A stretch of DNA of 35,802 bases from NCBI GenBank assembly GCA_012520725.1, contig JAAYNQ010000125.1:1-35802 (forward strand). Direction: 5' to 3'. Shown piece after piece: positions 1,121-25,988 of this stretch. Position numbers and translations under genes: made by a program. The notes under the pieces were generated by a model. The model was not told where the DNA came from. It searched no databases and saw only the letters and a list, made by a program, of their open reading frames with translations. Numbering within the stretch: position 1 is the first letter of the stretch; each line of letters starts with the position of its first letter. The stretch is from Syntrophomonadaceae bacterium (lineage in GTDB: Bacteria > Bacillota > Syntrophomonadia > Syntrophomonadales > Syntrophomonadaceae).

Positions 1121-1168
1121 ACTTAACACATAATCTATAAATAGTAAGCTGAAAAGGAGGATCTACAA

Positions 1169-1990
1169 GTGAAAGAAAAAGTCATGTCTTTAGACCAGGC
1201 CCTAAACCTGGTTCAAGATGGGATGCTTCTGGCCATGGGTGGAAATGGCATGCATAGAAATGCAACTCTATTCGCCCTGGGATTGACTCTAAAGCCAGTA
1301 AAGGATCTCAAAGTTTGTGCTGCAGCACCTGGAATTGCTGCGGATATCCTGGTTGGAACCGGAAAAGCCGATAGAGCGTATTTTGGATTTTTCGGATTAG
1401 AAAATGAAGCAGGTCTGGCCCCTGGTATGCGTAAAGCCATGCAGGGAGCCAATCCTACTGCCAAAGCTACCGAAGGTTCCTGAACTGCCCAGATAGCGGC
1501 TCTCCGTGGGGGAGCATATGGTATACCATTCCAGCCGGTGTGCGGAATGTGGGGCAGTGATCTATTGGAACAGAATCCGGATTTTTACAAAGTTATGGAA
1601 TGTCCCTGGACCGGGGAAAAGGTGGTTTGCGTAAGATCACTGAGACCGGATTATTCGATTATTCATGTGCAGGAAGCTGATATTTATGGTAATGCCCGTA
1701 TACTGGGACCTAATTATCAGGATGTTCTATTGTCCAGAGCTTCCGGCCATGTTATCCTGACTACTGAACGTATTGTGGGAACCTATCGCATGCAGGAGGA
1801 ACCCAAGCTCACTGCCATCCCCCATATATTAGTTGATGCAGTGGTTGAATTGCCTGGTGGAGCCAAACATGGAATATGTTATCCTGAATACCTGACCGTA
1901 GATTTTGATCTACACAAGGAATACCAGAAAGCGGTAAAAAGCGGTGAGGTACCCAAATTCGCCGAAAAAATGTTGGAAGGGAGGCTATAA
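1169..1990 (+). CDS. Class I CoA-transferase-fold alpha subunit (GctA/IpdA-like), probable selenoprotein with in-frame TGA
   Basis: Read through the TGA at 1481-1483 (codon 105), the gene encodes 273 residues, near the usual length of GctA-type alpha subunits. The N-terminus has the family glycine-rich turn AMGGNGMHRN. Beyond the TGA the frame continues with ALRGGAYGIPFQP, GMWGSDLL, IIHVQEADIYGNARILGP and VDAVVELPGGAKHG, all typical of the family. No frameshift or second stop is seen, which argues against ordinary gene decay. The GTG start has AAGGAGG 8 nt upstream. From memory, aligned homologs carry Cys at the TGA position, and in the ring-hydrolase branch (IpdA) a catalytic Glu. The beta gene starts 2 nt after this one ends. 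The substrate is unknown. The main alternatives are a nonsense mutation or a sequencing error. Confidence 0.75.
1481..1515 (+). promoter_or_regulatory. Putative Sec codon (TGA) and bacterial SECIS hairpin
   Basis: After the in-frame TGA (1481-1483), nucleotides 1499-1505 (GCTCTCC) can pair with 1509-1515 (GGGGAGC). This gives up to seven pairs, one of them G-U, closing the loop GTG at 1506-1508; a 6-bp stem with a 5-nt loop is also possible. There are 22 nt between the TGA and the 3-nt loop. As I recall, bacterial SECIS elements have the apical loop roughly 16-37 nt after UGA, a short stem, and G among the first loop bases. All three conditions are met. No selA/B/C/D gene lies in the window. 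Confidence 0.5.
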
Positions 1991-1992
1991 AA

Positions 1993-2742
1993 ATGGAATA
2001 TGGAAAAGATTATGGAAAACCGGAAATGTTTGCTGTAGCATGTATTCGTGAGATACAGGAAGGCGATAATGTATTCCACGGCCTCGCTTCTCCAACCCCC
2101 ATGGTAGCCATGAAGGCGGCTAAAGTTTTGGGTAAGGATTTTGCCTATATAACTTTGACCGATGGTTTAGATCATGACTATTTACGTCCTCCTTACGTTG
2201 CTTCTACCCTGACCGAAAATACCTATACCGGAAGTGTGGCAACCTTTGGACTGGATGATATCTTTGACCTATTTGCCAGAGGCCAGGGAGATATTGCTTT
2301 CCTGTCCTGCCTGCAGATAGACAAGACCGGAAGAATTGCTATGTCGGTTCTGGGGGGAACAGATTACGATCATCCTGCCCTTAGAGGACCTGGTGGGGCT
2401 GGCTCTGCCAGTATAGTACCCTGCTGTCCCAGGACTATCATTTGGAAGTGTTCCCATGATACCAGAACTATGGTGAAGCATGTTGAGTTTGCTACTACTT
2501 CTCCAGCCAAGGACAAATGGATGATCTTAATTACTCCATTATGTATATTCCGCAAAGCTCCCGGAGAAACTGAGTTTAAACTAGATTGCATATTCCCCTA
2601 TACCACTATTGAAGAAGTAAAAGAAAACACGGCCTGGGAAATTGAAGAAACTGATGTGCCGGTAATGGATCCTCCTACGGAAGAAGAACTGGCCGCCCTC
2701 AAGAAGGTTGACCCCAATTATATTCTGGGCTATGAATTCTAA
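1993..2742 (+). CDS. Class I CoA-transferase-fold beta subunit (GctB/IpdB-like)
   Basis: This 249-residue partner of the upstream alpha subunit starts 2 nt after its stop, with GGAGG in the end of the alpha gene. The N-terminal AVACIREIQEGDNVFHGLASPTPMVA is the usual GctB-type beginning (a reaction-independent CoA-transferase fold). The middle has GPGGAGSA, the glycine-rich stretch of the beta subunit. In typical members the first domain ends in ESG, whose Glu forms the glutamyl-CoA thioester. Here the aligned place reads YITLTDGLDHD, with Thr at the Glu position. The pair may therefore not be a classical CoA-transferase; a hydrolase or lyase like IpdAB is an alternative. The alignment was done by eye. 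The family call is confident; the reaction is open. Confidence 0.8.
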   Translation: MEYGKDYGKPEMFAVACIREIQEGDNVFHGLASPTPMVAMKAAKVLGKDFAYITLTDGLDHDYLRPPYVASTLTENTYTGSVATFGLDDIFDLFARGQGDIAFLSCLQIDKTGRIAMSVLGGTDYDHPALRGPGGAGSASIVPCCPRTIIWKCSHDTRTMVKHVEFATTSPAKDKWMILITPLCIFRKAPGETEFKLDCIFPYTTIEEVKENTAWEIEETDVPVMDPPTEEELAALKKVDPNYILGYEF

Positions 2743-2762
2743 TATAGAAAAAATATAAGATT

Positions 2763-2811
2763 AAAGCGGGACATCACAGAAATGTTAATTCTGTGGTGGT
2801 CCCGCTTTAGG
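2763..2811 (+). terminator. Intrinsic terminator after the CoA-transferase pair
   Basis: A long hairpin has outer arms AAAGCGGGAC and GTCCCGCTTT and further inner pairing (TCACAGAA with TTCTGTGG), followed by a short T-containing tail. It closes the sigma-54 operon. Confidence 0.8.
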
Positions 2812-2889: not shown

Positions 2890-3141
2890 AGGCGTTGACG
2901 CGCACAGCTCGCAGCTACAAAGCTTTACGCTGTGCCCCACTAGCGGAGGCGGTGAGCACAGCTGGCCCCTACAGACTTACAACGGTGTTTTTGGTACTAT
3001 CGAGGATTGTAGGGGCGGTCTTCGACCGCCCGCCGGGGTTTGCTACGATATTCCGTCGGATGAACAAGCAGGCGAGCACAGCTGGCCCCTACAAGCCTCC
3101 AACCTTTGCTGTATATGCAGGCGAGCACAGCTCGCAGCTAC
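2890..3141. repeat. Dispersed palindromic repeat cluster, left of the persulfide reductase
   Basis: This stretch contains one complete 84-bp element (3009-3092) that begins GTAGGGGC and ends GCCCCTAC, with an inner palindrome GGCGGTC-N-GACCGCC-like core. Several partial pieces (GAGCACAGCTGGCCCCTAC and GAGCACAGCTCGCAGCTAC types) lie around it. The orientation is opposite to the array at 5130-5645. Open frames here follow the palindromes on both strands and do not look like genes. The rest of the gap from 2812 to 3322 shows no gene. Confidence 0.75.
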
Positions 3142-3322
3142 GGTCTGTTGCCATGACCTGCATAGTGCTGGACGCTTATGCTAGGGAGATACATACATAG
3201 GGTTAAGACCCAAATATCCAGCTTACTCATATTATTTGCATCTAGGTAGCAGATTTGGTTTAGAATAGAACTATAGACATATGTTTATATCATATACTCT
3301 TAAGAAAGGCAGGTGACTTATG

Positions 3323-3368
3323 CCTGGTTGAGTAAGTCGACTCCCCGGTTTTATCCGGGTCAACCAGG
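3323..3368 (+). promoter_or_regulatory. Leader hairpin before the persulfide reductase gene
   Basis: The arms CCTGGTTGA (3323-3331) and TCAACCAGG (3360-3368) enclose a second stem, CCCGG/CCGGG, with a TTTTAT loop. The stem ends 4 nt before the weak AGG ribosome binding site and 10 nt before the ATG at 3379. It may modulate translation or mRNA stability. It also argues that the ATG at 3379, not the GTG at 3313 inside the same frame, is the real start. Confidence 0.45.
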
Positions 3369-3378
3369 TTTAGGAAAG

Positions 3379-5043
3379 ATGAGAAGAAAAATAATTGTAG
3401 TGGGTGGAGTAGCCGGAGGAGCCAGTGCGGCATGCCGCTTGCGGCGCCTGGACGAAGCAGCTCATATAATTATGTTCGAGCGGGGAGCAGACATTTCTTT
3501 TGCCAATTGCGGCCTGCCATACTATGTGGGAGGGGTAATCGAACAGCGAAAAAAATTGCTGGTGCAGACCCCAAAATCTATGCGTAGCCGTTTTAACATT
3601 GATGTAAGAACCATGAGTGAAGTTATTAAAGTTAAACCGGCGGATAAGAAGGTAGAAGTAAAAAATTTAATTAATGACACGGTCTATGAAGAGACCTATG
3701 ATTATCTGATACTATCTCCCGGAGCCCAGCCTGCCTTACACAATATTCCGGGAATAGAAAAATCCAATGTCTTTGTAGTTAGAAATGTACCAGACAGTGA
3801 CAATATAAAACAGTATATTCAAAGCCATCAGCCCTCTGCTGCAGCGGTAGTTGGGGCTGGTTATATCGGGCTGGAAATGGCAGAGATGCTAAAAGAATCA
3901 GGACTTAAGGTGACTATAATTGAAGCGGCTGATCAGATTCTGGGGGCCTTGGATCCTGATATGGCAGCTATAGTTCAGGACTATATTAAGAAACAAGGGA
4001 TTGATATAATCCTTTCGGATAAAGTAGTGGCCATGGAGGGTGCCGAACAGGTAGAGAAAGTACAACTGGAAAGCGGGAAGACCGTTGCGGCCGGGTTAAT
4101 AATTATGGGGACTGGGGTAAAGCCCGAGGTTTGGTTGGCTCAAGAGGCTGGCTTGGCCATCGGTTCTACCGGGGGTATACTGGTAAACGAATACCTGCAA
4201 ACTTCTGATCCCTTTATATATGCAGCCGGGGACGCCATACAGATTAAGGACTTTGTTACCGGAGACGACAGCCTGGTGCCCCTGGCCGGACCAGCAAACC
4301 GGCAGGGATGGATAGTGGCCAACAATATTTGTGGCCGGCAAATTAAATACACCGGTTCCCAGGGTACTTCTATAGTTAAGATTATGGATATGGTGGCCGG
4401 GGGGACTGGACAGAATGAAAAACAATTAAAGCGTAAAAACATCGATTATTTGTTCTGTCATGCCCATCCTTTTTCTCATGCCACCTATTATCCCGGCAGT
4501 AGCCAGATGACTATCAAACTGCTGTTTACTCCGGGGGAAGGAAAGATATTGGGGGCCCAGGTGGTAGGATATGACAATGTTGATAAGACCATAGATGTCC
4601 TGGCTACTGCCATTAGAGCCGGGATGAATGTCTACGACTTGCTGGAGTTGGAACTGGCCTATGCTCCACCCTTTTCCTCAGCCAAGAGTCCGCCCAATAT
4701 GGTAGCTTATGTGGCAGCCAATATACTGGACGGCAGCATTGACTGTGTGCGCTGGGAAGAAGTCCGGGATCTGTTGGAAGAGGGAACCTTCTTGATCGAT
4801 GCTCGTATGCCCAGGGAAGTGGAAAAAGGCAGTGTTGACGGGGCCCATAATATCCCGGTGGATGATTTGCGGGAACGATTGGATGAGCTGCCCAAAGACC
4901 GGGAAATAGCTGTTTTCTGCCAGGTGGGCATGAGATCCTATATTGCCAATCGCATCCTACAGCAAAACGGTTTTAAGGCCAAAAACATCAGTGGGGGCTA
5001 CCGCTTATACCAGTATCTGAAAAATAGTGGCCTGGTTGAATAG
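3379..5043 (+). CDS. CoA-disulfide / NADH-dependent persulfide reductase with C-terminal rhodanese domain
   Basis: The gene encodes a 554-residue flavoprotein. The N-terminal GGVAGGASAA is the FAD dinucleotide-binding motif, a second GAGYIGLEMAE near residue 160 binds NAD(P)H, and AAGDAIQ near residue 280 is the second FAD motif. Cys44 in ANCGLPYY is the single redox cysteine of the CoA-disulfide reductase family. From about residue 450 a rhodanese domain follows, with Cys514 in CQVGMRSY as the persulfide-carrying residue. Fusions of this type (CoADR-RHD, Npsr) reduce CoA disulfide, CoA persulfide or polysulfide. The same frame stays open upstream to a GTG at 3313, but those 22 extra codons cover a strong hairpin and precede the conserved N-terminus. 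The gene stands alone between repeat clusters and ends in a terminator. The family call is sure; the exact substrate is not. Confidence 0.9.
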   Translation: MRRKIIVVGGVAGGASAACRLRRLDEAAHIIMFERGADISFANCGLPYYVGGVIEQRKKLLVQTPKSMRSRFNIDVRTMSEVIKVKPADKKVEVKNLINDTVYEETYDYLILSPGAQPALHNIPGIEKSNVFVVRNVPDSDNIKQYIQSHQPSAAAVVGAGYIGLEMAEMLKESGLKVTIIEAADQILGALDPDMAAIVQDYIKKQGIDIILSDKVVAMEGAEQVEKVQLESGKTVAAGLIIMGTGVKPEVWLAQEAGLAIGSTGGILVNEYLQTSDPFIYAAGDAIQIKDFVTGDDSLVPLAGPANRQGWIVANNICGRQIKYTGSQGTSIVKIMDMVAGGTGQNEKQLKRKNIDYLFCHAHPFSHATYYPGSSQMTIKLLFTPGEGKILGAQVVGYDNVDKTIDVLATAIRAGMNVYDLLELELAYAPPFSSAKSPPNMVAYVAANILDGSIDCVRWEEVRDLLEEGTFLIDARMPREVEKGSVDGAHNIPVDDLRERLDELPKDREIAVFCQVGMRSYIANRILQQNGFKAKNISGGYRLYQYLKNSGLVE

Positions 5044-5060: not shown

Positions 5061-5098
5061 GCAGGCAGGGATCTCATGGTTCCTGCCTGTTTAATTTT
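5061..5098 (+). terminator. Intrinsic terminator after the persulfide reductase
   Basis: The arms CAGGCAGG (5062-5069) and CCTGCCTG (5082-5089) are followed by TTTAATTTT. Confidence 0.8.
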
Positions 5099-5129
5099 CC
5101 CATGAATCAATGATTAACGATGCTAGTAC

Positions 5130-5645
5130 CTCAGAGCTAGCTGCGCTCGCCCGCTGGTCCATCCGCCGGAATACCGTAGCAAACCCCGGCTGGCGGCCGA
5201 AGACCGCCCCTACACATGCCCGCATGAGATCCATACTAACGATGCCAATCCGTAGGGGCGACCTGCGGTCGCCAGCCTGCCCGTTCCCCGGAATACCGTA
5301 GCAAACCCCGGCTGGCGGCCGAAGACCGCCCCTACACATGCCCGCATGAGATCCATACTAACGATGCCAATCCGTAGGGGCGAGCTGCGGTCGCCCGCTG
5401 GTCCATCCGCCGGAATACCGTAGCAAACCCCGGCTGGCGGTCGAAGACCGCCTCTACACATGCCCGCATGAGATCCATACTAACGATGCCAATCCGTAGG
5501 GGCTAGCTGCGCTCGCCCGCCTGCCTATCCGCAGGAATATCGAAGCAAACCTGGCTGGTGGTCGAAGACCGCCCCTAGTATTGCCGCCAGCGACCACCGA
5601 AATACTGTAGCTAGTCTCGTGCTGGCGGTCGAAGACCGCCCCTAC
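5130..5645. repeat. Tandem array of 84-bp palindromic elements, 122-bp period
   Basis: Four 84-bp elements can be placed at 5130-5213, 5252-5335, 5374-5457 and 5496-5579. A degenerate, rearranged fifth ends at 5645. Complete units start GTAGGGGC and end GCCCCTAC (or one-base variants), so each has terminal inverted repeats plus inner palindromes such as GGCGACC-TGC-GGTCGCC. They are separated by a nearly identical 38-bp spacer containing GCCCGCATGAGATCCATACT, which gives the exact 122-bp period. The first unit has lost its left end by mutation. Open frames in the array are by-products of the repeat. Nothing else is seen up to the yqfC start region. Confidence 0.85.
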
Positions 5646-5779
5646 ACACTTTCCACCTTTCATCTTCAACTTTTTTTCAACTTTCCACTTCTGATTCAGC
5701 TCCCTGGCATTAGCTATCCGGCACTGGCATATATTTGTATGAATGCATATATAAGCCCGAAAAAGGAGGCGGTCACAGT

Positions 5780-6058
5780 ATGGAAAAAAACCGGGATACT
5801 CTCAATCGAGTAATGGCTGACTTTCTGGAAATACCCAGGGACCTGGTCATGGATATCCCCAAGCTGACCCTTATAGGGAGAAATGAGTTGTATATCGAGA
5901 ATCACCGAGGAATTATTGAATTCCAGGCAGATTTGCTAAGAATTAATCTCAGTCGGGGCTTTATTGAAATACAGGGCAATAATCTGGAAATCAAAACCCT
6001 CTTGCCTGAGGAACTCTTTTTAATCGGTGAAATAAACACCATAGTCTTCAGGGATTGA
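5780..6058 (+). CDS. yqfC: Sporulation protein YqfC (YabP/YqfC family)
   Basis: This 92-residue protein lies directly upstream of yqfD, the usual place of yqfC in spore formers. The core runs LTLIGRNELYIENHRGIIEF and ends LRINLSRGFIEIQGNNLEI, the short beta-rich YabP/YqfC pattern. The ATG at 5780 has AAAGGAGG 11 nt upstream; 15 extra in-frame codons upstream would cover this ribosome binding site and are not used. In Bacillus the gene is made in the mother cell under sigma-E. A poor candidate (GCATATA, then CATATATA at 5746) lies just upstream, but its spacing is short and I do not call it. The molecular role is not known. Confidence 0.85.
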   Translation: MEKNRDTLNRVMADFLEIPRDLVMDIPKLTLIGRNELYIENHRGIIEFQADLLRINLSRGFIEIQGNNLEIKTLLPEELFLIGEINTIVFRD

Positions 6059-6072
6059 TAGGGGGTTAAGTT

Positions 6073-7302
6073 TTGAGCAACAAACTGTTCGACCAGTGGG
6101 GAGGAATTATGAAGGTCAGGCTGCAGGGAGCCCGGCCGGAAAAGATTGTTAATATGGCTTTAGCCCGGGGTATATTCTTGTGGGATGTCAAGAAAGAAAA
6201 AGATTTCATGACTTTTCGTATAAGAAGCAGCGGATATGAGGCTCTAAAAAGCCTGGCGGATGAAAACGCTTATGATATGGAAGTACTTGATAGAAGAGGG
6301 CTGCCTTTCATGAAGTCTGCCATAAAAAGAAGAATGGCTTTTTTGGGCGGAGCCCTGGGTTTTATTCTAGCTCTATATATTCTCTCTTCCTTCGTATGGT
6401 TTATCAGCGTGGAGGGCAACGATAGAATTAATGATAAAGAGATACTGGATACAGCACGGCGTTATGGTGTATATCAGGGAGCGGCCAAATGGAATTTTAG
6501 CCGCAATGATGCTGAAGAAGCAATCTTACGGGAAATCAAAGACCTGAGTTATATCAAGATAGATATCAGAGGAGTAAAAGCCCACATTGAAGTAGTGGAA
6601 AAAGTCATCCCAGGTGAGGAAATAAACGGTCCTTGTCATTTAATAGCCAGCCAGGACGGAGTAATTGAAGAAATCATAGTCTTGGACGGTCAAGCCCGGG
6701 TAAAGGAAGGTGACACAGTAGCCAAAGGAGACGTACTGGTGTCAGGCCTGGTAATTCCAGAAATAAATCCTTACATGCCGCCGGAGGCCAACCAGAATCT
6801 AGATCCTTACCTGGTTCGAGCCCGGGGAATTGTCAAAGCCCGGGTATGGTTTGAAGGATACGGGGAGTGTAGTCTTTACCAGGAAAAACGGGTACTTACC
6901 GGGAGTAAAGAGCATCGGATCTATTTTAAGACTCCCTGGAATGAATTTAAAATATTTGGTGATGATAAAACTGGTTTCGCTTTGTACCAGAGCAGTGAAA
7001 AGACTAATACTATCAATACCCCCTGGGGAGCTTTTGAGTTGCTGAGAATAGTCTTGCAGGAAGAAAGAGTGGAAAAGAAGCAATACACTGAGGCTGAAGC
7101 CAGGAAGGTGGCAGAGAAGAAGGCTCTGGAGATTTTGCAGAAAAAGCTGGATAAATCGGAAAGCATTAATAATCCCAGGATTGAAGTTTTATCAGCTCCC
7201 AGTGAATCGGTACTGAGGGTTAAAGCAGCGGTAGAAATCATTAGGGAAATTACTGAGGCTAAGCCTATAAAAGAAGGCGAAAATGGCAATAAAAGCTTAT
7301 GA
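6073..7302 (+). CDS. yqfD: Sporulation protein YqfD
   Basis: This 409-residue membrane protein follows yqfC by 14 nt. A cytoplasmic N-terminal region of about 80 residues is followed by one clear membrane segment (about residues 87-107, in MAFLGGALGFILALYILSSF). A large outer part comes next, with the family sequence VWFISVEGNDRINDKEI and a Lys/Glu-rich tail. The TTG start at 6073 follows GGGGGT. An in-frame ATG at 6109 has an equally good GGGGAGG, but starting there would remove residues that align by eye with the Bacillus N-terminus (MSNKLFDQWGGIMKV). YqfD is conserved in spore formers and needed for efficient sporulation; its biochemical role is unclear. Confidence 0.9.
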   Translation: MSNKLFDQWGGIMKVRLQGARPEKIVNMALARGIFLWDVKKEKDFMTFRIRSSGYEALKSLADENAYDMEVLDRRGLPFMKSAIKRRMAFLGGALGFILALYILSSFVWFISVEGNDRINDKEILDTARRYGVYQGAAKWNFSRNDAEEAILREIKDLSYIKIDIRGVKAHIEVVEKVIPGEEINGPCHLIASQDGVIEEIIVLDGQARVKEGDTVAKGDVLVSGLVIPEINPYMPPEANQNLDPYLVRARGIVKARVWFEGYGECSLYQEKRVLTGSKEHRIYFKTPWNEFKIFGDDKTGFALYQSSEKTNTINTPWGAFELLRIVLQEERVEKKQYTEAEARKVAEKKALEILQKKLDKSESINNPRIEVLSAPSESVLRVKAAVEIIREITEAKPIKEGENGNKSL

Positions 7303-7368
7303 TATGCTATAATTACTAAGATAAATAAATAGTAAAGATCATACTTGATGTTTGGAGGGAAACCTTTA

Positions 7369-8343
7369 TTGACAAGAAAAGAGGCTAGGGTATCTATTGA
7401 TGATAATGAAAAGGCTGTAATACTATTCGGAAGTAATGATGAGAACTTCAAGTATCTTAAGAGTATCAGTAATGTCGATATGTTCTCCCGGGGAGGGGAT
7501 ATCCTTCTATCCGGGGAAGAAGAACAGGTAAATGCTGCCTGTGAACTCCTGCGTAGTTTGATCGATATGGTGGAAACCGAGGGACAGCTGACTATTAATG
7601 ATATCAACTACTTGAATGGGCTGATGGCCAAGGGAGCAAAAGTAAGAGCCCAGGAGGTGGTATCCGGTCCTCTCTTAACTACCGTTCGGGGAAAGGTAAT
7701 AAAGGCAAAAACTCTGGGGCAGAAGCGTTATGTTCAGTCTATCATTCGCGATGATATCGTATTTGGTATTGGACCTGCTGGAACCGGCAAGACATACCTG
7801 GCGGTGGTTATGGCAGTTCGAGCCCTTAAGAATAAAGAAGTGGAACGGATCATACTGGTCCGGCCAGCGGTAGAAGCAGGAGAGAAGCTGGGCTTTTTGC
7901 CGGGAGACTTGATTGAAAAGGTAAATCCTTATCTAAGGCCTTTATATGACAGTCTATTCGATATTTTGGGGGTAGATGTAACTCAAAGATACCTGGAGAA
8001 AAACATTATTGAGGTGGCTCCTTTGGCTTATATGAGGGGCCGAACCTTAAACGATGCCTTTATTATTTTAGATGAAGCCCAAAACACTACTCCCCAGCAA
8101 ATGAAGATGTTTCTGACCCGGCTTGGTTTTGGATCGAAGGCGGTGGTAACCGGGGATGTCACCCAGGTGGATTTACCTAAAGAGGAATACTCGGGATTGG
8201 TGGAAGTTCAGAGAATACTTCACCTGGTAAAAGGAATATCCTTTGAGTACCTGAGTAAACAGGACGTCATTCGTCACCCCCTGGTCCAAAAGATTATCGA
8301 CGCCTATGAAATATTTGAGGCTAATGAAGAGAAAAGCAATTGA
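7369..8343 (+). CDS. phoH: PhoH-like ATPase
   Basis: This 324-residue P-loop protein of the PhoH family has Walker A GPAGTGKT at residues 135-142. IILVRPAVEAGEKLGFLPGDL and the Walker B region FIILDEAQNTTPQQMKMFLTR follow, both hallmarks of PhoH, with VTGDVTQVDLP as a further family motif. A KH-like N-terminal region precedes the ATPase domain. The TTG at 7369 has GGAGGG 9 nt upstream and is preferred over TTG/ATG at 7345/7348, which lie before that site. PhoH is an RNA-linked ATPase that commonly sits beside ybeY and era. The neighbourhood supports a role in RNA or ribosome metabolism. Confidence 0.92.
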   Translation: MTRKEARVSIDDNEKAVILFGSNDENFKYLKSISNVDMFSRGGDILLSGEEEQVNAACELLRSLIDMVETEGQLTINDINYLNGLMAKGAKVRAQEVVSGPLLTTVRGKVIKAKTLGQKRYVQSIIRDDIVFGIGPAGTGKTYLAVVMAVRALKNKEVERIILVRPAVEAGEKLGFLPGDLIEKVNPYLRPLYDSLFDILGVDVTQRYLEKNIIEVAPLAYMRGRTLNDAFIILDEAQNTTPQQMKMFLTRLGFGSKAVVTGDVTQVDLPKEEYSGLVEVQRILHLVKGISFEYLSKQDVIRHPLVQKIIDAYEIFEANEEKSN

Positions 8344-8396
8344 AGAAATATACATACTGTTGGCGAAAAGCTTAAGGCTTTTTAAGGAGAGTATTA

Positions 8397-10589
8397 ATGG
8401 GAATTTCCAAAATTCTTAGCAGTTTATGGAGAAATATTAGCCTATTTTTAAAAAACTCTAATATAAAAAAGGGTTTAAGTATATTCCTATTCTTTTCTAT
8501 AACTATTCTTATTTTATTCAGCAATTTTAATCCCAAGCAGGTAATGTTAAAGCCCGATGAAGTGGCCCCCCGGGATATTCAATCCAATGTTAATGCTACC
8601 ATTATTGACATAAAACAGACCGAAGAGTTGAAAAAACAAGCGGCAGCCAAAGTGCAGAAGGTTTATCATGAGGATACCTATGCCCTTACTAGCGCGGAAA
8701 ACGATATTGATCTATTCTATTCCAACCTGGAGAATATTCTGTTGACCGGTGAGGGCGAAGAACTGAATAGGGAGCAGGCCAAAGCTGCATTAGTAGACCT
8801 GCTGAAGAGCACCAGCACCCGCTTTAGTGATCTGGTTATAGATAACAATACCCTGGCTGACTATTTACTAAATTCCAGCCCGGAAGACCTGCAGCAGATG
8901 AAGCAGATCTCTCTGACCATAGTCCAAAGTGTAATGGATAAGCCGGTAACCGACGAGACCATGGAGGACTTAAACCTGGAAGCGGCCAGCAAGATTGAGG
9001 TTTTACCCTATTCTCCGGAGGCCCGGGAAATAATCAAGTTGGTGAGCATCAATTCCCTAAGACCCAATCTCATTTATAACGAAGAAAAAACCAAGTTGGC
9101 TATCCAGGAAGCTATGGATTCAGTATCACCGGTACAAAAAAACATTAAAGCCGGGGAGATAATAGTACGGGAGGGTAATCGGGTTACCGAAGAACAGATT
9201 GCCATACTGGAACAGCTGGGTATACAAAGGACTAATAATTACACTTTAACCCTGATCGGCACTGCTTTATTTGTCTTTTTGACCTTTTGGCTGGTGATAG
9301 ATTTTATCCGCAGGTATTATCCGGAAATTTACAAAAACGATATGCTGCTTTTGCTATTGGGCTTGGTTTTTGTTTTGGTAATATCAATAAGCCGGTTTTT
9401 GACCATAATCAAGGTGGGAGATCAACCGGCACTAGGCAATTTGATCGGATATCTGGCTCCAGTAGCTGCAGGCTCCATGCTGATTGCTATTCTGCTGGAC
9501 GACCATCTGGCCTACTTTATGACCTTGATCATAGCCCTGTATGTAGGATTGCTGACCGAAGGGAACCAGCTTTTTTATGCCATTACTGCTTTGGTAGGGG
9601 GAACCGTTGGAATTTTCCAGGTTCACCGGGTAGAACAAACTTCAGATCTGGCTAAATCCGGTCTATACATTGCCTTAGCCAATATAGCAACTATTATTAC
9701 CTTGCTTTTTATCGGAGATGATCTTAATCTCAATAGCCTGCTTTTGGGGTCAGCTATAGGTGCAATAAATGGTATTTTGTCAGCCGTATTGATGATAGGG
9801 GTACTGCCTTACCTGGAAGCTGCCTTCTCTATTACCAGTATGAGCAAGCTCCTGGAGCTTTCCAATCCCAATCATCCTCTGTTAAAGCGTCTGCTTCTGG
9901 AGGCTCCAGGCACCTATCATCATAGTTTAATGGTGGGTAATTTGGCTGAAGCATCCGCTGAATCCATTGGTGCTAATCCTCTCCTGGTAAGGGTAGGTTC
10001 TTTGTACCATGATATAGGTAAGATTAAACGGCCGGAATACTTTGTGGAAAACCAGCGGGGATTTGAAAATCCCCATGAAAAAATCGCTCCCGCTTTGAGT
10101 ACTCTGATTATAACCTCCCATGTTAAAGAAGGGGTGGAAATGGCCCGGGAGGCCCGTTTGCCGGATGCCGTCATAGACTTTATCGAACAACATCATGGCA
10201 CCAGTTTGGCCAAGTATTTTTACAGCCGGGCTTTGGAGGAGGACAGAGACGGCAGTGTGAATGAAGATAATTTTAGATATGATGGACCTAAACCGAGGAG
10301 TAAAGAAACCGCCCTGGTAATGTTGGCCGATTCAGTAGAAGCGGCGGTAAGATCTCTGGATACCCCCACCCCGGAAAAGATACGGGATATGGTGCGTATC
10401 CTGGTTAAGGATAAATTAAATGACGGCCAACTGGAAATGTGTGATCTGACCTTTAAGGATTTGGATACTATCGCTAAATCTTTTAACAAGGTATTAGAAG
10501 GTATATACCATAAACGTATTGAGTATCCGGAAATAATACAAAAAGAATTTGATCAAGGGGGCAATAACACTGGAAACGATGATGATTAA
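8397..10589 (+). CDS. yqfF: 7TM-HD family cyclic-di-AMP phosphodiesterase (PgpH/YqfF type)
   Basis: This 730-residue protein has an N-terminal membrane helix (about residues 25-43), then an extracellular 7TMR-HDED-type region to about residue 280. A group of seven hydrophobic segments runs to about residue 480, followed by a cytoplasmic HD domain. The metal-binding residues are visible as H508-H509 in TYHHSLMVGN and H538-D539 in YHDIGK, with later EQHHGT and MLADSVEAA. Listeria and Bacillus members degrade c-di-AMP, which makes that the likely activity here. The ATG has AAGGAG upstream. The gene lies between phoH and ybeY as in Bacillus, and its end overlaps the ybeY start by 11 nt, suggesting translational coupling. 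Confidence 0.92.
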   Translation: MGISKILSSLWRNISLFLKNSNIKKGLSIFLFFSITILILFSNFNPKQVMLKPDEVAPRDIQSNVNATIIDIKQTEELKKQAAAKVQKVYHEDTYALTSAENDIDLFYSNLENILLTGEGEELNREQAKAALVDLLKSTSTRFSDLVIDNNTLADYLLNSSPEDLQQMKQISLTIVQSVMDKPVTDETMEDLNLEAASKIEVLPYSPEAREIIKLVSINSLRPNLIYNEEKTKLAIQEAMDSVSPVQKNIKAGEIIVREGNRVTEEQIAILEQLGIQRTNNYTLTLIGTALFVFLTFWLVIDFIRRYYPEIYKNDMLLLLLGLVFVLVISISRFLTIIKVGDQPALGNLIGYLAPVAAGSMLIAILLDDHLAYFMTLIIALYVGLLTEGNQLFYAITALVGGTVGIFQVHRVEQTSDLAKSGLYIALANIATIITLLFIGDDLNLNSLLLGSAIGAINGILSAVLMIGVLPYLEAAFSITSMSKLLELSNPNHPLLKRLLLEAPGTYHHSLMVGNLAEASAESIGANPLLVRVGSLYHDIGKIKRPEYFVENQRGFENPHEKIAPALSTLIITSHVKEGVEMAREARLPDAVIDFIEQHHGTSLAKYFYSRALEEDRDGSVNEDNFRYDGPKPRSKETALVMLADSVEAAVRSLDTPTPEKIRDMVRILVKDKLNDGQLEMCDLTFKDLDTIAKSFNKVLEGIYHKRIEYPEIIQKEFDQGGNNTGNDDD

Positions 10590-11040
10590 CCAGCAAGATC
10601 GGGTAGAATTCACCCCAGCCCTGGAAGCAAGCTTAAGGGGAATTGCCGATGAAGCCGCCCAGAGACTTGGCATTTCTTCTTCCAGTGAATTAAGCCTGTT
10701 GCTGGTGGACAATGAATATATTAAAGAATTGAATTTTATGTACCGGGGTAAAGATGAAGCTACCGATGTACTTTCTTTTGCCATGAATGAACTGGGTGAG
10801 GAGGAACCGGAATTAGAGGAACTGGATGACATCAATATGCTGGGCGATATAGTAATTTCGGTGGAACAGGCCTGGCATCAGAGTCAGGAATACGGTCATA
10901 GTCTGGAGCGGGAATTGGGTTACCTGCTGGTTCATGGCCTCCTGCATCTATTGGGATATGACCATGAGAGCGAAAGGGAGCAAAAGCTGATGCGGGAATG
11001 GGAAGAAAAAATTATGAGTGCCGTTGGCTTAAGCAGGTAG
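10579..11040 (+). CDS. ybeY: Endoribonuclease YbeY (rRNA maturation factor)
   Basis: This 153-residue protein has the zinc-binding motif HGLLHLLGYDH near residues 118-128, the three-histidine site of the UPF0054/YbeY family. Upstream come YRGKDEATDVLSFAM and LGDIVISVEQA, also diagnostic. YbeY acts in 16S rRNA 3'-end processing and ribosome quality control. The ATG at 10579 lies inside the end of yqfF. A TTG 30 nt earlier is in frame, but the length and N-terminus of homologs favour 10579 (or the adjacent ATG at 10582). Nearby phoH and era fit the ribosome-maturation theme. Confidence 0.92.
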   Translation: MMINQQDRVEFTPALEASLRGIADEAAQRLGISSSSELSLLLVDNEYIKELNFMYRGKDEATDVLSFAMNELGEEEPELEELDDINMLGDIVISVEQAWHQSQEYGHSLERELGYLLVHGLLHLLGYDHESEREQKLMREWEEKIMSAVGLSR

Positions 11041-11050
11041 GTTATTTATA

Positions 11051-11410
11051 ATGAAGCGAAGATCTTTCCCGGAAAGTATGGCCTCTGCAGTATCAGGACT
11101 CATTATGATAGTAAGGTCCGAAAGGAATATGAAAATTCATTTATTAGCGGCTTTTTTGGCTAGCACCCTGGGGCTGCTATTGGATATTGATAGAATGGAG
11201 TGGGGCTTGCTGGCCTTAACTATATTCCTGGTGCTGATAGCCGAAGCGGTCAACACCGCTCTGGAAAGGGTGGTAGACCTGGTAACCTCTGAGTATCATC
11301 CCCTGGCCCGGGCGGCGAAGAATGCTGCGGCAGGTGCTGTTTTGCTCAGTGCCATAAATGCCCTGATTATGGCTTTTATAATATTTGGTCCCTATTTGGG
11401 CTTAAGCTAA
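11051..11410 (+). CDS. dgkA: Undecaprenol/diacylglycerol kinase (DgkA family)
   Basis: This 119-residue protein has three membrane helices. The N-terminal SERNMKIHLLAA and the central AEAVNTALERVVDL carry the family Glu65, Asn68 and Glu72. The enzyme phosphorylates undecaprenol (Gram-positive type) or diacylglycerol at the membrane and feeds the lipid carrier pool for wall synthesis. One feature is unusual: the conserved Lys-Asp pair of the family (AKDxAAGAV) reads K90-N91 here (AKNAAAGAV), a change possible by one base. From work on the E. coli enzyme, as I recall it, that Asp is important for catalysis. The gene lies 10 nt after ybeY in the usual order. Confidence 0.9.
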   Translation: MKRRSFPESMASAVSGLIMIVRSERNMKIHLLAAFLASTLGLLLDIDRMEWGLLALTIFLVLIAEAVNTALERVVDLVTSEYHPLARAAKNAAAGAVLLSAINALIMAFIIFGPYLGLS

Positions 11411-11613
11411 ACTAAAGCTCTTAAAGGAGCTGTACTGATTCTCGTTCCGGTAGCTAGTGGAAGTCTGACTTGAATAAATAAATGCAGTGGGATGCTTACT
11501 GTTTCTAATTATTTCAAGGCTATAGTTTTTATAAATCCTGGTAGTTTAATTAATAATAATAAGATATAATTTTATTTTGACGCCTTACATTAATAGAATT
11601 GGAGGATGGGGCA

Positions 11614-12009
11614 GTGGAAGTAGCTGCACTTTTACAGGAAGCCCAAAAAGCTCAGCAGAAATCATATTCACCTTATTCCCGATTTAAAGTGGGGGCAGCC
11701 TTGTTGGGCCAATCGGGACAGGTCTATACCGGAAGCAATATTGAAAACTCTTCCTATGGTTTAAGTATCTGTGCCGAACGCACAGCCCTGTTCAATGCTG
11801 TCAACCAGGGTGAAAGGGAATTTAAGGCTATTGCCGTGAAGGGCAGCGGAAAGGGATTTATTTATCCTTGTGGTGCCTGCTTACAGGTATTGGCTGAATT
11901 TGCTCCCCATCTACGGATTATAGTAGGCAATGAAGAAGATGAATGGGAAGAATATCTTCTGAGTGACTTATTGCCCCAGGCCTTTAACTTGTCGACACAG
12001 GAGGGTTAA
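11614..12009 (+). CDS. cdd: Cytidine deaminase
   Basis: This 131-residue protein has the length of the small tetrameric cytidine deaminases. YSPYSRFKVGAALL is the N-terminal motif, NIENSSYGLSICAERTAL carries the zinc-binding Cys and the proton-shuttling Glu of CAE, and YPCGACLQVL carries the second Cys pair. It converts cytidine and deoxycytidine to uridine forms. The GTG at 11614 has GGAGG 8 nt upstream; a TTG at 11599 is in frame but precedes that site. A gap of about 200 nt after dgkA may hold a promoter, though no clear one is seen. The era start follows 5 nt after the stop. Confidence 0.93.
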   Translation: MEVAALLQEAQKAQQKSYSPYSRFKVGAALLGQSGQVYTGSNIENSSYGLSICAERTALFNAVNQGEREFKAIAVKGSGKGFIYPCGACLQVLAEFAPHLRIIVGNEEDEWEEYLLSDLLPQAFNLSTQEG

Positions 12010-14650: not shown

Positions 14651-14670
14651 TATTTAAGAATTTTATATAT

Positions 14671-14886
14671 CCCAGTGATGAAAAAGAGTAGTAAGAAAGA
14701 TCGATCTCTCCCAGAGAGCCGGGGAAGCTGGAAACCGGCAGAGATTTCTTTCTGAAGGCGCTTTGGAACTGCCAGGAGGAAAGCCATTATGGTTAGTAAA
14801 GCCTGGGATTATTAAGGTGGGTGTAAAAACCAACCAGGGTGGAACCGCGGGTAAGCCCGTCCCTGTACAGGGACGGGTATTTATAT
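14671..14886 (+). promoter_or_regulatory. Glycyl T-box riboswitch with terminator/antiterminator
   Basis: The leader shows the ordered parts of a T-box. Stem I begins GATGAAAAAGAGTAGTA, with the AGTA of the specifier loop. The arms AGAAAGA/TCTTTCT and ATCTCT/AGAGAT form its upper stem. The 3' side of the specifier loop is GAA-GGC, so the specifier codon is GGC (14757-14759), glycine. The T-box sequence AGGGTGGAACCGCGGG is at 14836-14851. The terminator hairpin CCCGTCCCT/AGGGACGGG at 14856-14877 is followed by a T-rich run. Uncharged tRNA-Gly would promote readthrough into glyQS, as in Bacillus. Confidence 0.93.
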
Positions 14887-14903: not shown

Positions 14904-15815
14904 ATGAATTTTCAAGAGATAATACTGCGTCTGGAGAATTATTGGGGCAAACAGGGATGCATCATCCAACAGCCTTATGATATGGAAAAAGGGGCCGGGA
15001 CCATGAATCCCGCTACTTTTCTACGTTCATTGGGGCCTGAACCCTGGAAGGTAGCTTATGTAGAGCCTTCTCGCCGGCCTACCGATGGCAGGTATGGAGA
15101 GAACCCCAACCGTTTACAGCACTATTACCAGTATCAGGTAATATTAAAGCCATCTCCGGATAATGTTATTGATCTGTACTTGGATAGCCTCAGGGATTTG
15201 GGTATAGATCCGGACCAGCATGACATAAGGTTGGTAGAGGACAACTGGGAGTCCCCTACCCTGGGAGCCTGGGGGCTGGGCTGGGAGATTTGGCTGGATG
15301 GGATGGAAATAACCCAGTTCACCTATTTTCAGCAATGCGGTGGATTTGATTGTGTTCCGGTTTGTGCAGAAATAACCTATGGACTGGAGCGAATTGCCAT
15401 GTATATACAGAACCGGGAAAGCGTATTTGATATTGAATGGGTGGAGGGCATTCGCTATGCCGACGTCCATCACCAGGGAGAGGTGGAGCATTCCCGTTAT
15501 AATTTTGAGCTAGCCGATGTAAATACCCTCACCACTATGTTTAACCTATGCGAAAAGGAAGCATTGAGAGTGGCCGAAGAAGAGCTGGTATTGCCGGCTT
15601 ATGATTATGTATTGAAATGCTCCCACCTATTCAACCTCCTGGATGCCCGGGGAGCTATAAGCGTTACTGAACGAACCGGCTATATAGCCCGGGTAAGAAA
15701 CCTGGCCCGAATAGTAGCAGGACGCTATATAGAACAGAGGAAGAAAATGGGTTATCCACTGTTAAAAGATGAAAAACTGCGTCAGGTCTTCCTGGATCAA
15801 GAGGAGGTGCGGTAA
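14904..15815 (+). CDS. glyQ: Glycine-tRNA ligase alpha subunit
   Basis: This 303-residue class II synthetase subunit has [20 protein letters not shown] and [20 protein letters not shown], the signature of the alpha2beta2 glycyl-tRNA synthetase alpha chain. [18 protein letters not shown]-like sequence follows (here [18 protein letters not shown]) and [10 protein letters not shown] forms motif 3. The alpha subunit forms glycyl-adenylate. The ATG has GAGGAGG upstream and lies 17 nt after the T-box terminator. It overlaps glyS by 1 nt (TAATG), so the two are translated together. Regulation by the upstream T-box is well supported by the sequence. Confidence 0.97.
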
Positions 15816-17884
15816 TGGCAAAAGACCTTTTATTTGAGCTGGGTGTAGAGGAGATGCCATCAGCTTATATGCCCAAAGCTTTAGATGACCTGTCCCAGCT
15901 GGCCCGGAAGAAATTTGACGAGGCCCGGCTGCATTTTAGCGATCTGAAGGTTTATGGTACTCCCCGCCGTTTGACTCTTTACATCTCTTCCCTGGAAGAA
16001 AACCAGCAAGCTGCCCTAATAGAGACCCGGGGGCCCAAAAAAGCCATTGCTTATGATAAGAAAGGACGGCCTACTAAAGCTGCCTTGGGATTTGCCCGGG
16101 GACAGGGGGTTAAGCCGGAAGACTTGATAATTAAAGAGGTGGATGGAGTCGAATATATCTTTGCCAGCAAAGAAGAATCCACCCGACCCAGTACTGAAAT
16201 CTTGGGAGATTTACTCCAGGACCTGGTATACAGCCTGGTTTTCCCCAAATCCATGCGCTGGGCTTATTACAACACCCGTTTTGCCCGTCCTATTCGTTGG
16301 ATCTTGGCCCTTTTCGGGGAGCAGGTAGTAGAACTGCAGATTGAAAACATAAAATCAGGTCGTATCACATTTGGTCACCGCTTTTTAGGCCAGGGTCCCT
16401 TGGAAGTAAAAAAAGCCTCGGAATATTTCCAGGCTTTAAGTGAAAATTATGTGGTCCTGGACCAGGATGAAAGAAGGGCCTTGATTTGGCAGCAAGTGCA
16501 GGATACGGCCCAAGCCCATGGAGGCTCGGCCCTGGAGAATTCGGAGCTATTGGAGGAAGTCACTTACCTGGTGGAGTATCCTCAGGCCTTTTTTGGACAG
16601 TTTTCTGATTCCTACCTGGAAGTACCTCCAGAAGTATTAACCACCTCCATGATAGAGCACCAGAGGTATTTTCCGGTCTATGAGCAGGGAGGTCAGTTGA
16701 TGGCCGGTTTCATTGGGGTTAGAAATGGAACCGATTATTGCCTGGACCTGGTTCGGGCAGGAAATGAGAGGGTAATTAAAGCCCGCCTGGAAGATGCCCT
16801 GTTCTTCTGGAAGGAGGATACTAAAAAACCATTGGAAGATATGGTTCCAAGATTAGCCGAGGTCTTATTCCATGAAAGACTGGGCAGCATTATGGACAAG
16901 GTAGAGCGCTTAAGTGTATTGGCCTCTTACCTGGGGCAGAAACTGGCCTTAAGCAGTGAAAACCGCATAGCTCGAGCGGCCTATTTATGCAAAGGGGACC
17001 TGGTGAGCAGTATGGTGTATGAGTTTCCGGAATTGCAAGGGATAATGGGGCGCTACTATGCTCATAAAAGCGGCGAAGAGGCTGAAGTCAGCCAGGCTAT
17101 ATTCGAGCACTATTTGCCCCGTTTTGCCGGGGACCAACTGCCCCAAACCCATACCGGTATAGTACTCAGTCTTAGCGAAAAAATCGATAATCTAATCGGC
17201 TGTTATGCTATAGGTATTAAACCTAGCGGTTCCCAGGATCCTTACGCTTTGCGGCGGCAAGCATTGGGTATAGTAAATATTATTATTGACCATGAGCTGA
17301 ATCTTGACTTAGGTCAGGTATTGGCCCAAGCTTATACCGGATTTCAAGGGATTGAGCCGGAACAGGATATGGAAGTAACTGTTAGCGAGGTATTGGATTT
17401 CATCGGACAGCGTTTGCGGGGAGTACTATTGGAAAAAGGCCTGGCCTATGATGTGATTGATGCCGTATTAAGCATTGATAAATCAAATATCAATGATATT
17501 TACCAACGAGTGGTGGCCCTGCAGCAGTTTAAAAATGAAGCGGAATTTGCAGATTTAATGGTGGTATTTAACCGCTCCCATAACCTGTCCAAAAAATGGC
17601 ATTCCAATCAGGTTCAAATCGAAAATCTGGTGGATCCCAGTGAACTTAAACTCTTGGAGCGGGTGCGCCTGCTGCAGTCAGAATTGGGAGCTTATATTAA
17701 AACCGCCAGTTATGACCAAGCCTTGCATAGCTTGGCCTCCTTAAGGCCGGCAGTGGATGAATTCTTTAATGCAGTTATGGTTATGGTGGAGGAAGAAGCA
17801 TTAAAGAACAACCGCTTAAGCTTGCTTAAGTCAATTGCAGACTTATCCAGGTTGATAGCAGATTTCAGCAAAATTGTGGGATAA
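15815..17884 (+). CDS. glyS: Glycine-tRNA ligase beta subunit
   Basis: This 689-residue beta chain has LLFELGVEEMPSAYMP at the N-terminus, VYGTPRRLTLYI, PKSMRWAYYNTRFARPIRWILAL and SMIEHQRYFPV, all family hallmarks. SEKIDNLIGCYAIGIKPSGSQDPYALRRQALG near residue 460 is its HD-like part, and the C-terminal DALR-like anticodon-binding region follows. It binds tRNA-Gly and partners with GlyQ. Its ATG shares one base with the glyQ stop, with GAGGAGG upstream. Length and motifs are normal. No strong terminator is seen after it, only an AT-rich stretch. Confidence 0.96.
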   Translation: MAKDLLFELGVEEMPSAYMPKALDDLSQLARKKFDEARLHFSDLKVYGTPRRLTLYISSLEENQQAALIETRGPKKAIAYDKKGRPTKAALGFARGQGVKPEDLIIKEVDGVEYIFASKEESTRPSTEILGDLLQDLVYSLVFPKSMRWAYYNTRFARPIRWILALFGEQVVELQIENIKSGRITFGHRFLGQGPLEVKKASEYFQALSENYVVLDQDERRALIWQQVQDTAQAHGGSALENSELLEEVTYLVEYPQAFFGQFSDSYLEVPPEVLTTSMIEHQRYFPVYEQGGQLMAGFIGVRNGTDYCLDLVRAGNERVIKARLEDALFFWKEDTKKPLEDMVPRLAEVLFHERLGSIMDKVERLSVLASYLGQKLALSSENRIARAAYLCKGDLVSSMVYEFPELQGIMGRYYAHKSGEEAEVSQAIFEHYLPRFAGDQLPQTHTGIVLSLSEKIDNLIGCYAIGIKPSGSQDPYALRRQALGIVNIIIDHELNLDLGQVLAQAYTGFQGIEPEQDMEVTVSEVLDFIGQRLRGVLLEKGLAYDVIDAVLSIDKSNINDIYQRVVALQQFKNEAEFADLMVVFNRSHNLSKKWHSNQVQIENLVDPSELKLLERVRLLQSELGAYIKTASYDQALHSLASLRPAVDEFFNAVMVMVEEEALKNNRLSLLKSIADLSRLIADFSKIVG

Positions 17885-22454: not shown

Positions 22455-25400
22455 TTATTTATGAAGCCCGGGATTCCGGACTGCCTCAGTCAATCTGCTG
22501 TCAATATTGATATCAAGATCCTGCTCAAAACGTTTCTTGAATCTGTAATAAAGACTGACCGCCTTACTTCTCCTCCCTTGCCCCATAAGCAACTGGAGCA
22601 ATTCCAGACAGATTTTCTCGCTATAGGGTTCCAAAACCAGAGCGTGACGGAATATAGATTCAGCCTGGCTCAGTTTACCCCGTTTCTCATAAATAAAGCC
22701 TAACTTGAGGCAGATATCCTCAAATATCATTTTGCATCGTTCCCGCTCCAGAAATACCAAATCTCCATAATCACTATACTCCATCAAGTCGCCTCGATAG
22801 ATGGAGACCATTTGCTCCAGCAGTTCCAAGATGGCGTCGCTATCACTCCCGGTCTTCTCCGATAAGGCAGCCAGCTCCTGCTGCAGGCGCAAAAACTCGG
22901 CGATATCCAGCTCCAATATCTCGCTATTTCTAATTTGCAGGCCTCCAAGGGTTTCATGGATAAAGGCATTGTTTCCCGAAACAGGAACCTGGTATTTAGA
23001 AAGGGTTTTTCTAAGCTGGTATAAAGCTGTGCGCAGGGATACCATGGCGGATTTGCTATCAGAGTCAGGCCAGAAGATATTCAGCAGGGTATCTTTCGAT
23101 ACCGTTTTGCCGTTATTTAAAATCAGGTATTCCAATATGCCTTTTACTTTTTTTGTTTTCCATTCAGTATCCGGAATTTTTATGCCATTGACGAACACCT
23201 CCGGAGTACCGAAAAGTGCTGCTTTTACCACATAAAGCTGCTCTCCCTGACTAGGCTGGTATCGAAATACAAAATCCTCCACAAATGCTGTAATTCTGCT
23301 TTCATCCATAGTTTTGACTATTTTCGCCAGATAAGTTATAGTACCGCTGTCGTAAAACTTGCTCAGCAACTCTTCGGCAAAGCCAACACAATAGCCGTAG
23401 CGCATACTCCGGAGCGACATTTCGGTGAGGGTGGGAATATGGATATCCCAAAACATAAAATACCTGTTCTCTGATGCCAGTTCCATGGCTTGCTGCAAAT
23501 AATAGTGACCTTTTTCCTCATTTCCTTTGACATAATATAGCTTGGCCAGATGGAAACAGGCACCACAGAGTACCTGAGATCCCTTTTTCACCTTTGCCAG
23601 CCGCATCGCCGAGAGCAAGCAGCGTTCTGCCCGGGGAAAATCCCCCGACTCCCTGGCAATAGCTCCGAGAATGGACAGGGCAGTCTCATTGACCATTAAT
23701 CCGGGTTTGGCTTTTCTGAGCATAGCCATCTCCAGGCGGGCTTCCTCCAGATTACCGGTATTGGCAGGCCGGATGGACCAAAGCCGCTTTAAGAGCATAG
23801 TAGATGCAACCATTGCATTATTGTTCATCCGCCGGTAGTGAAAAATCGCATAATCAAGCATCTCTACAGAACCCTCCATGTCAAAGGACAGGTAGCGTTC
23901 AAAGGCAGCCAAGCGCCTACCGTTGGCTGACAGGTAGTCATAATCATATTTTTCACCGATGGCAGTGATTTCTGAAAGGGCAGAGGTCAGGCGCTCCTTT
24001 TCATTTTTCAATGACCAGGTGGTGGCCAGAAACAGCAGGACAAACCCACGGGCAGGCTCGATATTCTTGAAATTATCCAATAATAGGGCTGTTTGCATAC
24101 AGTGTTCCGCTCGGTCAAGCTTGCCGAGACAGTGATAAATTATGCAGGCCAGAATTAAGTACAGCCATTTGCTGTCTTCTGGGAGATGATCGTACAGAAG
24201 GGTTTCGCTTTGAGTTTCCCCCTGGCCAAACTGTTCTTCCCCGATGGACCGCACCATGTCCAGGATTAGCAAGGTGTTTTTGAGTTCCTGTGAAGTATTT
24301 TCCAGCTGCCAGGGAAGGCCTGTAGCTATTTCCCGTAAGCCCTTCATATCGTTGCTGCACATTAGAATATAGATCAAAACGCTTGCCGCCTGATAATAAG
24401 TATCGAGCTTTTTATCAAGCAAAGACATATGCAAGATTTTTTTTAGGGGTTCTACCATTTCCGATTGCCTGCTGTTGGGCATGAGTTGTGCTTTATACAT
24501 TAGGAGAACCGGATTATCCCTGACCAAATCCTCCGGCAGCAAGTCCAGCCAGATCTTCAATTGTGCGGTTTCGCCGACCAAAATCTTATTGTATCCGGCT
24601 TTTATTACAATATCAATGGCAGCAGATACATTTCCGCACTTTGCCAGGTGCTCGGCTGCCCGGATATAGGCTTCCTGGCCGATATAATAGGTGGCCGCTT
24701 TCAGGTGCAGCTGGGCGATCAGCTCACCGGAGCATCGGTTTTTCAAAATATGGAGCAGAAATTCCCGGAACAAAGAATGGAAACGGTATACTACCGGGTC
24801 CCCATGAATACGCTGGGTGAATAGGCCGAATCCCATGCTTTGTGCGATCAGAGCTTGTATGTCAGTGATCTCAAATATTTGCTCAGCCTCTGATTCTATA
24901 AAGTCCTGTAGCAGGGCAAGTCTGATCAAAGCATCCTGGGTACTGTATTCCACGGATTCAAATACTTCCAGGGACAAATACCGGAACAGAGCCTCTTCAT
25001 GGACCAGCTTAGCAAGTTCATGGGCAGGAATATTGGGTCCTTTGCTTTTTAATGCCTGGTATAAGATGATGATACCTGCTATCCATCCTTCTGTTTTTTC
25101 TTGGATAAAAACGGATAATTCTTGCTGAGCCAGGCTTTTATCCATGTGAAACATAAAATCCTTTACTTCAGATGGACTAAAGGCCAGGTCTTCAGCGCCT
25201 ATTTCCAGCACCTTTTGCTCCAGTTTTTGCTTCTCCGTATAGATTCTGAAATCAGTGCGGTTTAAGACGAATATGGTGCAGGAGGGAGGCAGGTTATCCA
25301 TCATAAACCTGGTCATATCACATATTTCTGGAGTCTGGATTACGTTCTGAAAATCATCCAACACGATATAGGTTCGGGCATGGCTGGAAGGACTATGGTG

Positions 25401-25928: not shown

Positions 25929-25988
25929 GATTTATGCAGGTTTTGTCAGTTTATGAACATTTAACAAAAGAGAGGGCTGATATATTTG

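Follow-up and report, generated by a model that had tools for sequence, protein, structure and literature searches.

A probable selenocysteine-containing alpha subunit of a proposed IpdAB-like acyl-CoA enzyme in a Syntrophomonadaceae bacterium

Does a gene of the CoA-transferase fold that is interrupted by a single TGA encode a selenoprotein and, if it does, to what kind of enzyme does the product belong? The question is raised by a 35,802-nucleotide contig of a Syntrophomonadaceae bacterium (hereafter the window, meaning this whole stretch), in which two neighboring genes both matched PF01144 in a profile search (Table 1). The preliminary description, made from the sequence alone, had claimed one TGA at codon 105 in an otherwise intact frame of 273 codons. 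The sequence confirms this claim; the TGA is the sole internal stop of the alpha gene, and no further lesion is present. The beta gene is intact as well and starts 2 nt past the alpha gene. A mechanical ORF call, on the other hand, renders the alpha gene as two pieces of 104 and 150 residues. All of the evidence presented below was obtained by computation and concerns the gene architecture, the conservation of the UGA, a hairpin, the selenocysteine (Sec) machinery, the fold, and the exchange of residues at the Sec position.

Table 1. Features of the alpha-beta gene pair and its downstream neighbor in the window.
Feature	Position	Strand	Basis or remark
Ribosome-binding site AAGGAGG, 8 nt 5' of the GTG start	1154..1160	+	sequence
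Alpha subunit, PF01144 CoA-transferase fold, 273 codons, putative Sec at codon 105	1169..1990	+	sequence, profile match, model
In-frame TGA, probably read as Sec	1481..1483 (codon 105)	+	same column in 36/36 TGA-bearing relatives inspected
SECIS-like hairpin GCTCTCC-GTG-GGGGAGC	1499..1515	+	covariation and synonymous-recoding test
Beta subunit, PF01144, lacking the transferase catalytic Glu	1993..2742	+	Leu at the AibB Cys56 / GctB Glu54 column
Long terminator-like hairpin, probable end of the alpha-beta transcript	2762..2809	+	20-bp stem, z = -7.2
CoA-disulfide reductase with C-terminal rhodanese domain	3313..5043	+	possible partner; separate transcript likely; neighbor kept in 5 relatives

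The TGA is conserved in the relatives of the window gene. Scanning 84,980 species genomes with a pattern yielded 12 relatives, of which 11 span the site, and all of the 11 (67-89% identity) possess TGA at codon 105. When the genomes of the window's GTDB class were searched in six frames, each of the 14 full-length close matches contained exactly one TGA, and the next full-length match was more than 400 bits weaker. Further TGA genes with identities as low as 33-38% were found in 398 genomes of the phylum plus two further classes. Altogether, 36 distinct TGA genes were inspected, and the TGA fell in the identical alignment column in every one of them, never being another stop. These genes share about 33% to 89% identity with the window gene and make up two or three clades of anaerobes, the carriers being at least 36 anaerobic bacterial genomes (syntrophs, Desulfosporosinus-like bacteria, and others). 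Three motifs can be distinguished around the site, namely EGSU (23 genes), EHTUP (four genes near L075), and [ED]H[TV]U[PV] (nine genes). One of the TGA genes resides in the complete, single-contig genome of a cultured type strain, Syntrophothermus lipocalidus TGB-C1 (published at 2,405,559 bases; PMC3035303), at C1:1233546-1234364, so that misassembly of metagenomes is excluded as a general explanation. Several genomes of Syntrophomonadaceae gave no match; hence, not every member of the family carries the gene. The viral contigs searched contained no relative, and the only relatives found beyond the phylum were that of Acetoanaerobium (a Cys form) and distant plasmid-borne ones.

A hairpin downstream of the TGA had been proposed as a SECIS element in the preliminary description, and its position is as described there: it begins 15 nt 3' of the TGA, and the G in its loop (position 1506) lies 22 nt after the TGA. 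By itself, the hairpin of the window is inconspicuous. The 47-nt region folds no better than its dinucleotide shuffles (z = -0.08), a test in which codons were swapped for synonyms at each gene's own usage gave a non-significant p value of 0.059, and an Rfam search of positions 1100-2100 returned no known family above the threshold. The significance comes from the relatives, with covarying stems in each of the two main Sec clades. Six pairs in the EGSU group are paired in 100% of the cells with two of them covarying, and seven pairs in the other Sec groups are paired in 98.6% with four covarying. The covariation score was reached by none of 500 shuffles in either set, and sliding the partner strand by one base destroys the pairing. 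In the synonymous-recoding test, the hairpin was stronger than the mean in 23 of the 23 Sec genes (mean z = -1.81; p < 0.05 in eight), the corresponding mean z values being +0.24 for 28 genes with Asn, +0.05 for three with His, and +1.15 for three with Cys. The hairpin is absent from the Cys and Asn homologs. Both covariation and synonymous recoding across the Sec relatives favor the SECIS interpretation.

The genome also carries the genes for making and inserting Sec. Where the preliminary description had named selA, selB, selC, and selD, we found selB, selA, the tRNA-Sec gene, and selD together on contig C201, and selD itself contains a TGA. selA was present in all of the 16 TGA genomes tested. 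In the phylum sample, selA was detected in 257 of 398 genomes (65%) but in 15 of the 15 TGA carriers, for which the probability by chance is about 0.0014. Judging from the sequences, the TGA at codon 105 is almost certainly read as Sec, i.e., the gene most probably encodes a selenoprotein; the UGA would be decoded by the genome's own SelA/B/C/D under the guidance of the hairpin.

The selenoprotein family is absent from the inventory published in May 2026, as no family of the CoA-transferase fold appears among the 119 prokaryotic selenoprotein families in Table 1 of that review (PMC13188914; open-access literature). No CoA-transferase-fold selenoprotein is on the deep-Sep list (PMC12013277), the family is missing from the published selenoproteome of Syntrophomonas wolfei (PMC1794560), and NCBIfam 20.0 holds no model whose cut-off the window protein reaches. 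The earlier statement that no selenoprotein was known in the class I CoA-transferase family agrees with the inventory and NCBIfam. The window family resembles known bacterial selenoproteins in the UGA accompanied by an in-gene hairpin, the presence of Cys homologs, and the standard SelA/B/C/D, but differs from them in that it has the motif EGSU or [ED]H[TV]U and no UxxC/CxxU redox motif. Most known selenoproteins are redox proteins, many of them being thioredoxin-like in fold (PMC13188914).

Which residues take the place of Sec in the other relatives? Cys, Glu, Asn, His, or Gln was found in the Sec column. Cys/Sec exchange is thus seen among the homologs, albeit Cys is a minority state (four genes, the set of L073, L074, L076, and L144, including that of Acetoanaerobium noterae) and not the state of many family members as had been claimed. 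L073, L074, and the A. noterae homolog share related flanks (EHACYT). Glu occupies the column in L079, L080, L085, and others, and Asn, His, or Gln in the ordinary GctA relatives. In the phylogenetic tree, the Sec genes were separated into two groups, and the Cys genes L073 and L074 were nested beside one of them. The IpdA-type Glu genes were placed on the same side of the tree as the Sec genes, with a weak joining branch (52/72). The related alpha subunits L155-L158, which share a [CA]DEP motif and carry Glu at the Sec position, may constitute a further group. The region 5' of the Cys homolog in L097 (about 8900-11400) contains no real ORFs and, to judge by its translated frames alone, looks like a cluster of tRNA genes.

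The AlphaFold model of the alpha subunit (pLDDT 89, pTM 0.89) places residue 105 in the first turn of a helix that follows a strand. The best structural match in the PDB was IpdA (Z = 32.5; 2.1 Å over 268 residues), including its E105A entry, followed by AibA and GctA. The entry 6coj is titled 'IpdAB E105A COCHEA-CoA complex', and comparison of its chains with those of 6co6 showed that the mutated residue is the Glu within EMDEG. The preliminary description had placed the catalytic Glu of IpdA somewhere in the aligned segment; Glu105 in fact falls in the exact Sec column under three MAFFT modes, an assignment that rests on multiple alignment, as the pairwise phmmer alignment to IpdA has a 3-residue gap beside the site. 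Cys237 was considered as an intramolecular partner of Sec and rejected; it is present in all of the Sec genes but also in the Glu relatives and GctA, and is hence not specific.

In class I CoA-transferases, the catalytic Glu resides in the beta subunit (Glu54 of GCT; PMC5380842). The corresponding residue is Leu in the window beta subunit and Leu, Ile, Met, or Trp in those of the Sec relatives. We compared 60 alpha/beta pairs, four of which were PDB references. The catalytic Glu of beta is missing in 29 of the 29 pairs with Sec, Cys, or Glu in alpha, and is present in 29 pairs with Asn, His, or Gln in alpha; one pair with Gln and AibAB have neither. Since one or two changes on the tree suffice to produce this reciprocal pattern, we regard it as a structural argument and not as an independent statistic. 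The name 'CoA-transferase-fold enzyme' given previously is appropriate as to the PF01144 fold and the paired genes, but 'CoA-transferase' would be a misnomer for the protein, given that the catalytic Glu is missing from its beta subunit.

Altogether, we propose that the window gene encodes the selenoprotein alpha subunit of a two-subunit IpdAB-like acyl-CoA enzyme, in which Sec is catalytic and which is probably not a CoA-transferase, and assign a probability of roughly 75% to this reading. Sec105 would substitute, from the alpha side, for the catalytic Glu that true class I CoA-transferases hold in beta. Like Glu105 in IpdAB, its selenolate may serve as a nucleophile or base toward the acyl moiety of a CoA thioester, and the enzyme would then be an IpdAB-like hydrolase or lyase. 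As far as the chemistry is concerned, such a role of Sec105, being neither redox nor transfer, is slightly favored by the sequences.

Three characterized systems are the closest to the window pair. IpdAB, the COCHEA-CoA hydrolase of Rhodococcus jostii RHA1 and Mycobacterium tuberculosis (PDB 6co6, 6co9, 6coj, and 6con; PMC5380842), shares the fold, the catalytic residue in the same alpha column, and the beta subunit without the transferase Glu; it differs in having Glu105 instead of Sec and in its low identity (25-27%), and no steroid genes are annotated in the surroundings of the window gene. AibA/AibB, the 3-methylglutaconyl-CoA decarboxylase (PDB 5mzw; PMC7756340), likewise shares the fold without being a transferase and is the closest PDB relative of the beta subunit, but AibA has Gly in the Sec column and AibB has Cys56 where the window beta has Leu. 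Glutaconate CoA-transferase GctAB (PDB 1poi) is similar in the fold, PF01144, and the adjacent alpha and beta genes, but GctB keeps the catalytic Glu54 and GctA has Gln in the Sec column. If the IpdAB-like reading is true, an acyl-CoA enzyme with Sec at its active site would add a further reaction class to those known for selenium catalysis, and the family would provide a natural set for comparing Sec, Cys, and Glu within one fold. The placement of the catalytic group in alpha or beta would serve as a simple sequence rule to tell true CoA-transferases from the other enzymes of the family. Ordinary annotation likely splits such genes in two and misses them.

The gene neighborhood bears on an alternative in which Sec105 has a redox role. 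Sec in glycine and proline reductases forms covalent intermediates in a reductive step. By analogy, Sec105 might form a covalent Se-substrate or Se-S-CoA intermediate in a reductive acyl-CoA step, and the enzyme would be regenerated by a disulfide reductase (CoA-disulfide reductase or an HdrABC-like complex). At 16 of 19 EGSU loci, the Sec gene is adjoined by an HdrC-HdrB-HdrA-HdrC-HdrB cluster (whole or partly visible), CoA-disulfide reductase, or both; this count excludes four Desulfosporosinus-like loci, and the three loci without such neighbors are on short or truncated contigs. A neighbor of this kind lies within 1.5 kb at eight of 17 EGSU loci versus one of 42 ordinary GctA loci, and the Cys homolog of A. 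noterae is located directly behind a CoA-disulfide reductase. Nevertheless, no such neighbor occurs at the four Desulfosporosinus-like loci or in the other Sec clades, no Sec-specific resolving Cys is conserved in either subunit, and the window gene pair is parted from the reductase by a strong hairpin and 570 nt. Moreover, Glu in the Sec column of relatives favors acid-base or acyl chemistry. We consider the redox role rather unlikely. A particular course, in which Sec105 attacks the acyl chain and is freed by forming a selenenyl sulfide, with CoA or a different thiol as partner, that Hdr-like or CoA-disulfide reductases would reduce, appears rather doubtful. If true, it would amount to a reductive selenoenzyme on the CoA-transferase fold, as opposed to the known thioredoxin-fold, molybdopterin, and glycine-reductase types. 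With respect to these loci, an HdrC-HdrB-short HdrA-HdrC-HdrB set is conserved beside the Sec gene in L088, L089, L090, and L092-L095, and a second GctAB pair and an MFS transporter often accompany the Hdr set or CoA-disulfide reductase at EGSU loci. CRISPR-like repeats and cas-like genes adjoin the Sec gene locus in L159 (about 5075-11902).

The shared fold and subunit order, and the exact coincidence of Sec or Cys in alpha with a missing beta Glu, would also suit a Sec-based CoA-transferase, in which the role of the beta Glu passes to Sec105 and the acyl group is held on it as an acyl-selenoester. We find this improbable, as IpdAB, with Glu in alpha, has also lost the beta Glu and catalyzes no CoA transfer between short acyl substrates (PMC5380842), and many EGSU operons hold a second GctAB pair, so a transferase is already there.

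It is very improbable that the gene is split or decayed, with the TGA as a true stop that leaves a 104-residue product, alone or together with another polypeptide started at the GTG at 1538: the mechanical ORF call is of this form, but the identical TGA in 36 genes, the covarying hairpin, the intact Sec machinery, and the conservation of codons 106-123, which lie outside both products, stand against it. The 18-codon stretch from the TGA to the following in-frame start shows 177 synonymous versus 82 nonsynonymous codon differences, indicating purifying selection. Two separate polypeptides were rejected on the conservation of this segment. A pseudogene or sequencing error is opposed by the TGA shared among 36 genes including one in a finished isolate genome, and recoding of TGA as Trp by the fact that no relative has Trp in this column.

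Several other features were observed in the window besides the putative selenoprotein locus. Four imperfect copies of a 33-nt GC-rich repeat (2897-3152) lie between the beta gene and the CoA-disulfide reductase gene. An ordinary T-box leader (14669-14867; 106 bits) is situated just 5' of an ORF at 14904 and glyS (15815-17884). An open frame of more than 3,270 residues (25986-35801), bearing subtilase, fibronectin type III, and bacterial Ig-like domains, exits the window. Divergent from this giant subtilase, a protein of 1,109 residues (22455-25784) is encoded, comprising MalT-like TPR, a bacterial transcriptional activator domain, and a C-terminal regulator domain.
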